This document shows positions 39,872 through 44,157 of a stretch of DNA of 61,456 nucleotides, piece after piece (position 1 is the first letter of the stretch; each line of letters opens with the position of its first letter). The notes beneath the pieces were generated by a model, which was given only the letters and a program-made list of their open reading frames with translations, was not told the origin of the DNA and did not search any database. The translations under genes were made by a program, and so were the position numbers. Location of the stretch: positions 1 to 61,456 of the forward strand of contig JAILQZ010000012.1 in NCBI GenBank assembly GCA_024698685.1. Direction: 5' to 3'. Origin of the DNA: a bacterium. GTDB lineage: Bacteria > Actinomycetota > Coriobacteriia > Coriobacteriales > CADBOM01.

Positions 39872-39906
39872 GCGCCCCTTGCGGCCAAGCGGCTGCAAGG
39901 GGCGTC
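39872..39906 (+). terminator. Terminator hairpin downstream of enoate reductase
   Basis: GCGCCCCTTGC...GCAAGGGGCGT followed by cgtttt. Confidence 0.75.
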
Positions 39907-41309: not shown

Positions 41310-42839
41310 CTACTTCATTCCCTTGAAGCTGTTGCCGATGCCGACCCAGTTCTCCGGATAGGGGAGATACCTGTAGTTGAACGACTCCTTCTTCCTATCG
41401 GCTGTTGCGACGGTCTTGTAGAAGCCGAAGCTCTGGAGGCCGAACGGTCCGCTGATCATGCCGGAACCCGACTGGGCGACTCCGCCATGGGCGGTGCGGC
41501 GGTTCATCGCCTGAACGAGCACGTCGTTGATGCAGCAGGAGCCGAAGGAGAGCTGCTCGGTGCAGTAGTAGTTGTTGCCCTTGAGGTTGGTGGTGAAGAG
41601 GTACATCGCCGGGCTGGAGCCGCGCTTGAAGATGGTGTCGACGGCCTCCCTGAGGTCCTGGTATGCGAGGACCAGGATGATCGGACCGACGTTCTCCTTC
41701 TTCAGCAGCGGGCTGTTGTTCGAGCCGACGAGAATGCAGGTGGGCTCGACTGCGAGGGTCTCGGCGTCGTACTTGCCTCCGAAGAGGAGCTTGTCGTTGG
41801 AGCCGACGTTGTCGATGATGTCGAGCGCCAGGCGGAACTCCTCCTTGTTGAAGAGCTTCGGGCAGTTGGGGCTGTCGATCGGATGGTCGCCGTAGGTGCT
41901 CTTCACATACTCCCACATGCGGTTGATGAGCGGCTTGTAGAGGCTCTCGTGCGCGAAGACGCAGGAGGGAGCGGTGCGCAGACGGCCGCCCTGGATGCAC
42001 TTGCCCCACATGATGCGCTTGCCGGCATGCCTGAGATCGGCGGTGTGGTCGACGATGACCGGGTTGTTGCCGTTGAGCTGCATCGTGACGGACGCGCCGA
42101 CCTTGCCAGCTGCCGCGGTGATCGCGTTGCGCTTCTCAGCGGGGCCGGTGTAGTAGACCTTTGCGAAGCCGGCTTCTGCGATGGCCGTATCGACCGACTC
42201 GTCGCCGACCGTGAACTTCAGGCAGTTCTCCTTGAAGACCGGGCCGATGATCTTCTCGATGATCTGGTTGGTCCTCTCGAAGTGCGATGGGTTCTTGATG
42301 GTGCCGGTGCATCCGGCGGCAAGCAGGTTGATTGCAGGAATCATGGCTGCAGCGAAGGGGCTGCGAGACGAGTTGATGACGCACGTTGCGCCGATGGGCT
42401 GCCAGACCTCCCTGAACCGGGTGCTCTTGAAGATCAGCCTGTCCATGATAGGCAGGTGGTTGCGCGTCCTGGTCCAGTCGCGGACGTTCTTGTTCATGCA
42501 CTTGAACTCGTAGTGGACGGGAGCGACCTCGGTGAGGAACGCCTCGAACTCGCTGATCTTGAGGTCTGCGGCGATTGCCGGGACGAGCTGGTTCTCAAAC
42601 TCCTTTAGGTTGAGTGAGAAGAAGGAGACCGCCTTCTCGCGCTCCTTGATCGGGTAGTTCAGACGATGGTTGAAGTACTGCGTTTGCTTTTGGCAGAGAT
42701 CCTTGGCGTATTCCGGGGTGATCTTGGCGACGTCGACCTTGCGGGCAAACTCTATGGCCTCGTCCTCGGCGCGCTTCTCGAGTCGCTCCGCACGCAGCTC
42801 TTTGTAAGTCTTCTTTTCGTTCTTCTTTTTCTTTGCCAT
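41310..42839 (-). CDS. Aldehyde dehydrogenase-fold protein, apparently lacking catalytic residues (putative pseudoenzyme)
   Basis: ALDH landmarks 'GATCVINSSRSPFAAAMIPAINLLAAGCTGTIKNPSHFERTNQIIEKII', 'MQLNGNNPVIV', 'MWGKCIQGGRLRTAPSCVFAH', 'NVGPIILVLAYQDLREAV', C-terminal 'HGGVAQSGSGMISGPFGLQSF'. Confidence 0.8.
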   Translation of the reverse strand: MAKKKKNEKKTYKELRAERLEKRAEDEAIEFARKVDVAKITPEYAKDLCQKQTQYFNHRLNYPIKEREKAVSFFSLNLKEFENQLVPAIAADLKISEFEAFLTEVAPVHYEFKCMNKNVRDWTRTRNHLPIMDRLIFKSTRFREVWQPIGATCVINSSRSPFAAAMIPAINLLAAGCTGTIKNPSHFERTNQIIEKIIGPVFKENCLKFTVGDESVDTAIAEAGFAKVYYTGPAEKRNAITAAAGKVGASVTMQLNGNNPVIVDHTADLRHAGKRIMWGKCIQGGRLRTAPSCVFAHESLYKPLINRMWEYVKSTYGDHPIDSPNCPKLFNKEEFRLALDIIDNVGSNDKLLFGGKYDAETLAVEPTCILVGSNNSPLLKKENVGPIILVLAYQDLREAVDTIFKRGSSPAMYLFTTNLKGNNYYCTEQLSFGSCCINDVLVQAMNRRTAHGGVAQSGSGMISGPFGLQSFGFYKTVATADRKKESFNYRYLPYPENWVGIGNSFKGMK

Positions 42840-42942: not shown

Positions 42943-44157
42943 TTGACGCTATTTGTAGGACAAGTGAGGGAATTGTCGCCAAATCTTCCAGATTCCATAC
43001 TCGCATCGGCTTCTCCACGCCGCCGCGAACTTCTTCGCGATGCGGGGGCGTCCTTCATTTGCATCGCCTCCAATTGCGATGAGTCTGTCGATTCGAGGCT
43101 GCCTGCTGACGAGCAGGCGGTTGCGATAGCCAAGGCCAAGGCGCACGACGTGCTGGCCGCCCTCGGCGGTGATGATGCGCATCCGATCATCGGCTGCGAC
43201 ACGATGGTCGTGCTCGACGGCGAGATCTTCAACAAGCCCGCAGATGCCGCAGATGCACGACGCATGCTGGGCGCGCTCAGCGGCAGGGCCCATCAGGTCA
43301 TCAGCGGGGTCTGCATCCTGTTCGCAGGGGGCGAGGTCTCCTTCTCGCAGACCACCTCGGTAACGTTCAGGGATCTTTCCAGCGGCGAGATCGCTGACTA
43401 CATAGCGACTGGCGAGCCGTTCGACAAGGCTGGCGGCTACGGGATCCAAGGGGACGCCTCGAGGTTCGTCGAGGGACTCGATGGCAGCTACAGCAACGTC
43501 GTGGGATTCCCAATTGAAAGCGTCGTCGAGATCCTTGCGGGCCTGGAGTGCGAGCCGATGGACAAGACGAAGATCCGCAAGGCAGCAAAGGCCGCGCGCA
43601 AGGCGATCGGCCCCGCGAAGCGCGCGGAGCTCTCGAGGCTCGCGTGCGAGCGTGTGATGGGAATGCCTGAGTTCCGCGAGGCCAGGAGCATCGCAGTCTA
43701 CAGCCCATTCGGAGCCGAGCTCTCGCTCGATGCGATGCTGCAGGCGCTGCCCGAGGGCAAGGAGATATCCGTTCCCGTCGTGCTCGGCGGGCGCGAGATG
43801 GAGTTCGTCGTCGTGAGTCCGGAGGATGTTTTGAGTCCGGCGGCAGGCGGTTCTGCGGTCAAGCCCGATTTCATAGCCAAGCCAGCCGATCGCGCGAGTC
43901 TGCCCGAGGAAACGAAGGTGCTCGGCGAGAGCGAGATCGACCTGATCGTAGCGCCTGGCGTTGCCTTCGATGAGCTCAACAACCGCATCGGCTACGGCGG
44001 AGGGTACTACGATACCTATCTGGCCCGCGCTAATCTCGGCGCCAAGATCATCGGCATGTTCTTCGACGAGCAGATGTTCCACGGGCACTTCGCAACCGAG
44101 AGCTTCGACATGCCGTTGCCTGCTATCGCGACGCCCACGAGGGTGATTCGCCTTTGA
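42943..44157 (+). CDS. Fusion: Maf-family nucleotide pyrophosphatase + 5-formyltetrahydrofolate cyclo-ligase
   Basis: N-half 'SILASASPRRRELLRDAGASF...IIGCDTMVVLDGEIFNKPAD...YIATGEPFDKAGGYGIQG'; C-half 'DKTKIRKAAKAARKAIG...DLIVAPGVAFDELNNRIGYGGGYYDTYL'. One continuous frame; start uncertain. Confidence 0.9.
   Translation: MTLFVGQVRELSPNLPDSILASASPRRRELLRDAGASFICIASNCDESVDSRLPADEQAVAIAKAKAHDVLAALGGDDAHPIIGCDTMVVLDGEIFNKPADAADARRMLGALSGRAHQVISGVCILFAGGEVSFSQTTSVTFRDLSSGEIADYIATGEPFDKAGGYGIQGDASRFVEGLDGSYSNVVGFPIESVVEILAGLECEPMDKTKIRKAAKAARKAIGPAKRAELSRLACERVMGMPEFREARSIAVYSPFGAELSLDAMLQALPEGKEISVPVVLGGREMEFVVVSPEDVLSPAAGGSAVKPDFIAKPADRASLPEETKVLGESEIDLIVAPGVAFDELNNRIGYGGGYYDTYLARANLGAKIIGMFFDEQMFHGHFATESFDMPLPAIATPTRVIRL

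Follow-up and report, generated by a model that had tools for sequence, protein, structure and literature searches.

The window, a stretch of 61,456 nucleotides from the genome (about 1.78 Mb) of a gut bacterium of the order Coriobacteriales, encodes a protein of 509 residues that has kept the predicted fold of an ALDH3-type enzyme and has lost its catalytic residues. We regard this protein, here termed pseudo-ALDH3, as a vertically inherited pseudoenzyme of ALDH3 type that is maintained by selection, and we put the probability of this reading at about 0.85. It agrees with a candidate pseudoenzyme proposed in an earlier note on the same DNA: the gene is intact and selected, and the loss of the catalytic Cys and of the general-base Glu is common to an orthologue in a second genus and absent from 40 other relatives.

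Fold and catalytic positions

The open reading frame comprises 509 codons without an internal stop, and the intact frame claimed in the earlier note is right with respect to length and coordinates (Table 1). The Pfam Aldedh profile (PF00171) matches the protein end to end with 135 bits, residues 36–477 corresponding to positions 22–461 of the 461 in the profile. The best sequence matches in the PDB are of ALDH3 type, namely AldH from S. aureus (PDB codes 6k0z and 6k10) and human FALDH (4qgk). An AlphaFold2 model, calculated from an alignment of 29 sequences, has a mean pLDDT of 84 and a pTM of 0.79, and a Foldseek search with this model returned crystal structures of ALDH3 and FALDH proteins as top matches, with E-values down to 1e-38. 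By the full-length profile match and the Foldseek result the protein belongs to the ALDH superfamily, as had been proposed, and the ALDH3-type fold is retained in the prediction. The core is preceded by the charged N-terminal extension that had been noticed before, with 15 Lys or Arg and 10 Asp or Glu among its 46 residues; in the model it forms a helix (residues 12–34) flanked by stretches of low confidence. The N-terminal extension of the orthologue described below measures about 254 residues and is acidic and probably disordered, with a high content of Ala, Pro, Glu and Lys, compared with a charged extension of 46 residues in the window protein.

Table 1. Positions of pseudo-ALDH3, its altered sites and the DUF1015 gene in the window
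Feature	Position	Strand	Basis or remark
Pseudo-ALDH3 gene, 509 aa	41310..42839	-	ORF, Pfam, PDB sequence matches, AlphaFold2, Foldseek
Charged N-terminal extension, residues 1–46	42702..42839	-	Largely outside the Aldedh core
Arg159 codon, in place of the oxyanion-hole Asn	42363..42365	-	Alignments; Asn in the orthologue
Former general-base strand, residues 253–267 (MQLNGNNPVIVDHTA)	42039..42083	-	Best-conserved 15-residue stretch between the orthologues
Gln254 codon, in place of the general-base Glu	42078..42080	-	Orthologue has Leu; all aligned canonical relatives have Glu
Arg288 codon (CGC), in place of the catalytic Cys	41976..41978	-	Ungapped alignments; Arg in the orthologue too
DUF1015 gene, 423 aa	39944..41215	-	Downstream of pseudo-ALDH3, same strand, 94 bp gap; Pfam DUF1015, 222 bits

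Of the residues that characterize an active ALDH3, the catalytic Cys, the general-base Glu (E268 in ALDH2 numbering) and the oxyanion-hole Asn are all lacking. From WGK to HES the alignment with canonical ALDH3s contains no gaps, and Arg288 therefore occupies the position of the catalytic Cys. Alignment with canonical ALDH3s also places Gln254 at the general base and Arg159 at the oxyanion-hole Asn, which means that all three substitutions described in the earlier note are real. Among 103 positions with a conservation of at least 95% in canonical relatives, 54 are kept in the window protein and 69 in the orthologue, and 29 are lost in both. In 12 of these 29 shared losses the two proteins have the same residue, C288R, P183N, S259N and D292S being among them. 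The cofactor motif FTGSxxxG is altered in both orthologues (TGPAEKR and TGNRDME); the NAD(P)-binding Lys (Lys192) is present in both, and the equivalent of Glu399 (Glu382) in the window protein only. Since the orthologue has kept the Asn and the window protein Glu382, cofactor binding may persist in part.

Relatives and selection

Three genomes represent the small Coriobacteriales family to which the host belongs: the host itself, a second genome of the same genus (G001), which corresponds to a sheep-duodenum metagenome assembly, and a genome of another genus (G002). G002 encodes a full orthologue with 35% identity (L037:4796-6943). It has Arg at the catalytic Cys (GQTR) and Leu at the general-base Glu, it retains the Asn, and its cofactor motif is changed, so that only the Cys-to-Arg exchange and the loss of the Glu are common to both proteins. 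When the question raised in the earlier note, whether Arg, Gln and Arg are conserved in orthologues, is put to this sequence, the answer is positive for the position of Arg288 and negative for those of Gln254 and Arg159. In G001 the contig breaks off after the first 193 residues, which are 99% identical to those of the host protein, and independent full-length sequences of pseudo-ALDH3 number two only.

From the order and the class, 40 other ALDH3-like relatives were aligned, and all 40 have the normal triad; the Cys and the Glu are also present in L022, a more divergent relative whose frame contains a stop. A search through the order (399 genomes), the class (300) and the phylum (397) returned no further orthologue above the canonical background, and a scan of public genomes yielded the same-genus fragment and no other orthologue. 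As far as seen, pseudo-ALDH3 is confined to one small Coriobacteriales family, and within it no orthologue with a normal triad was found. In a maximum-likelihood tree the window protein and its orthologue form one clade (support 100/100, stem 2.99) within the canonical Coriobacteriia ALDH3-like group, the exact point of attachment being uncertain because the branches are long. The occurrence of the Cys and Glu losses in two genera is most simply explained by a loss already in their shared ancestor. This distribution suggests a stepwise course in which the Cys and the Glu were lost before the genera split, and the Asn later in one line only.

Over residues 2–193, the host gene differs from its counterpart in G001 by 19 nucleotides, 17 of which lie at third codon positions. 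The resulting dN/dS is 0.029 for these 192 codons, outside which the region of the Cys and the Glu lies; the values for comparison are 0.16 and 0.20 in the two next genes and 0.08–0.09 in three further genes. The pseudo-ALDH3 gene is thus under strong purifying selection across its N-terminal 193 codons. Codon adaptation, calculated with the ribosomal protein genes of the host genome as reference and serving as a proxy for expression only, is 0.77 for pseudo-ALDH3 (rank 7 of 31 genes in the window), which falls within the ribosomal range, and 0.78 for the DUF1015 gene. Good expression is therefore predicted for the two genes.

A gene in the process of decay would be in keeping with the long branch and the many near-invariant ALDH positions that are gone. 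However, 509 open codons, the low dN/dS, good codon adaptation and the same loss in an orthologue from another genus leave this explanation with almost no probability, and selection on residues 2–193 together with synteny speaks against a pseudogene for the part covered. Hardly any weight can be given, either, to a normal ALDH whose nucleophile has merely been displaced or whose Cys has been obscured by a sequencing error. Cys281 and Cys293 are located near the active-site loop of the window protein, and the Cys of its WGKC motif had been named in the earlier note as one that might take the catalytic position. In the orthologue, however, the column of Cys281 contains Met and residue 293 is Tyr, and several canonical relatives (L009, L012, L042) have a Cys in column 281 in addition to the catalytic Cys; this comparison of columns rules out the Cys of WGKC as the nucleophile. 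No Cys was found at the catalytic position of the window protein or its orthologue, which both have Arg there. The appearance of this Arg at the same place in an independent genome also speaks against a sequencing error, in line with what had been argued before.

The former active site and the DUF1015 neighbour

When the two orthologues were compared in stretches of 15 residues, the mean identity was 35% (sd 13), and the highest value, 73%, was obtained for residues 253–267, the former general-base strand. This strand reads LELGGKSPCIVDETA in canonical proteins, MQLNGNNPVIVDHTA in the window protein and MLLSGNNPVVVDSTA in its orthologue, the change from GGKSP to GNNP being common to both. The former Cys loop (residues 278–292) is 53% identical. 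As conservation peaks in the former general-base strand, the pocket looks re-tooled, and not decayed or merely structural. The conservation of Arg288 itself is no more than would be expected on average, because just two sequences are compared and 12 of their 29 shared losses agree.

The DUF1015 gene that the earlier note had placed next to pseudo-ALDH3 is confirmed by its Pfam match (Table 1), and no terminator-like site was found on the minus strand between the two genes. A strong stem-loop of 15 pairs, terminator-like on the plus strand, is located at 39872–39905, at the convergent ends of the DUF1015 gene and an FAD oxidoreductase gene. On the other side of pseudo-ALDH3, an ORF of 404 residues (42943–44157, plus strand) appears by eye to encode a Maf-type protein followed by an apparent 5-formyltetrahydrofolate cyclo-ligase. 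The order Maf-like gene (divergent), pseudo-ALDH3, DUF1015 is also present in G002, where the last two again share a strand, and the Maf side of it in G001. The adjacency of pseudo-ALDH3 and DUF1015 is therefore seen in two genera, and the contig of the third genome ends before the DUF1015 side. Co-occurrence of the two genes, which the earlier note had proposed to check, holds as synteny in G002 but does not extend to the other loci examined: an ALDH gene lies beside DUF1015 in 0 of 30 loci from the order and in 0 of 9 from the class, which speaks against a general association of DUF1015 with ALDHs.

Most DUF1015 proteins sampled in the order are of another subfamily, 21–25% identical to the window copy. 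Nearer ones, with 39–45% identity, come from families of the class that lie outside the order, and the class thus contains two DUF1015 subfamilies. The window copy has retained the residues that are invariant in DUF1015 proteins, DGHHR among them. Its model (pLDDT 88) matches the free serine kinases SerK and SbnI with E-values from 1e-7 to 2e-5, and these were the sole structure matches at E < 0.001. In other Coriobacteriales a gene for phosphoglycerate dehydrogenase is often the neighbour of DUF1015, accounting for seven of the ten neighbours scanned, which had been chosen for their length. The predicted fold and these neighbours (loci L062-L091) together provide a lead that DUF1015 may act in serine or phosphoserine metabolism; a literature search turned up no more than two passing mentions of DUF1015.

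As judged from its sequence, pseudo-ALDH3 would not carry out the Cys-based, NAD(P)-dependent oxidation of aldehydes. The old active-site cleft, with Arg288 and the conserved GNNP strand, may now be a pocket in which a ligand is bound, probably an anionic metabolite. The protein would then be an abundant binding or regulatory subunit, which possibly acts on the DUF1015 protein encoded next to it, which in turn resembles enzymes of serine-kinase type. Both the anionic ligand and the partnership with DUF1015 are tentative suggestions, and we hold them to be possible and not probable. As a whole, the picture of an ALDH3 turned into an anion-binding regulatory subunit (or an enzyme with new chemistry), the pocket of which senses a metabolite and controls the SerK-like DUF1015 protein, is unlikely to be correct in every part. 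The earlier note had proposed a binding, regulatory or structural role. Such a repurposing is something that we still infer, and the conserved pocket strand leans towards a re-tooled pocket over a purely structural function. Apart from pseudo-ALDH3, no ALDH3 was found in the host genome, the assembly of which is about 94% complete; the only other Aldedh matches, identified from their sequences, are an acylating-type ALDH and a weak one resembling ProA. A model in which the protein is the dead partner of an active ALDH3 paralogue thus has no partner here and was set aside.

A mainly structural protein or scaffold, comparable to crystallins or to the inactive AldDH of GRM1 microcompartments, would make the pocket irrelevant. 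Such a function fits the high predicted expression, the charged extensions of both orthologues and the retained fold, and it has a precedent in the GRM1 system (PMC4207490). It is nevertheless rather doubtful, as conservation of the pocket strand is well above the average in a protein that otherwise diverges strongly, and no microcompartment shell gene was noticed on reading the genes around the locus. The same conservation might indicate a working enzyme with different chemistry, in which Arg288 would bind an anion or take part in catalysis, for example on an acyl phosphate or a phosphorylated substrate. In its favour, the former active-site strand and loop rank with the parts in which the two orthologues agree best, and have the new GNNP, R288 and S292 in common; the gene is also under selection, with good expression predicted. 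However, the cofactor motif is changed, the old catalytic positions provide no nucleophile or acid/base common to both proteins (Gln or Leu at 254, Arg or Asn at 159), and the shared Cys153 sits on the strand before the oxyanion position, outside the catalytic loop. We consider an enzyme of this kind distinctly improbable.

Comparison with known systems

Pseudo-ALDH3 shares the fold of the whole core with ALDH3 and FALDH proteins (6k0z, S. aureus AldH; 4qgk, human FALDH; 3sza, ALDH3A1) at 24–27% identity, but differs from them in the absence of the Cys, the Glu base and the oxyanion Asn, in its altered cofactor motif and in the additional charged N-terminus. The DUF1015 model matches the structures of SerK and SbnI (PMC5120207, PMC12704722), whereas DUF1015 is longer and only 11–14% identical to them, the likeness coming from the predicted fold.

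ALDH pseudoenzymes have been described before, from humans as well as from bacteria. Human ALDH16A1 is an ALDH without catalytic residues, for which a role as a binding protein is assumed (PMC8160307, PMC10650815). ALDH16 proteins have a second, non-functional ALDH-like domain at the C-terminus, whereas the window protein is bacterial and consists of one ALDH3-type domain, with a single Aldedh stretch identified by Pfam in its 509 residues. In the second AldDH of GRM1 microcompartments, proposed to act as a scaffold or regulator, the Cys is changed to Ser or Pro (PMC4207490). Pseudo-ALDH3 resembles this protein in being a bacterial ALDH with a replaced catalytic Cys. There, however, the gene is part of a microcompartment locus that also has a second AldDH, while here the Cys has become Arg, the gene lies by DUF1015, and no active ALDH3 was found.

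Pseudo-ALDH3 is therefore set apart from the known dead ALDHs by its ALDH3 type, the Arg substitution, its neighbour gene and the fact that it stands alone, in a genome with no active ALDH3. Few conserved pseudoenzymes are known from the ALDH superfamily, and bacterial examples have hardly been described. Pseudo-ALDH3 would offer a tractable case of the re-use of an old catalytic cleft, and through it DUF1015 comes into view as a possible partner enzyme.
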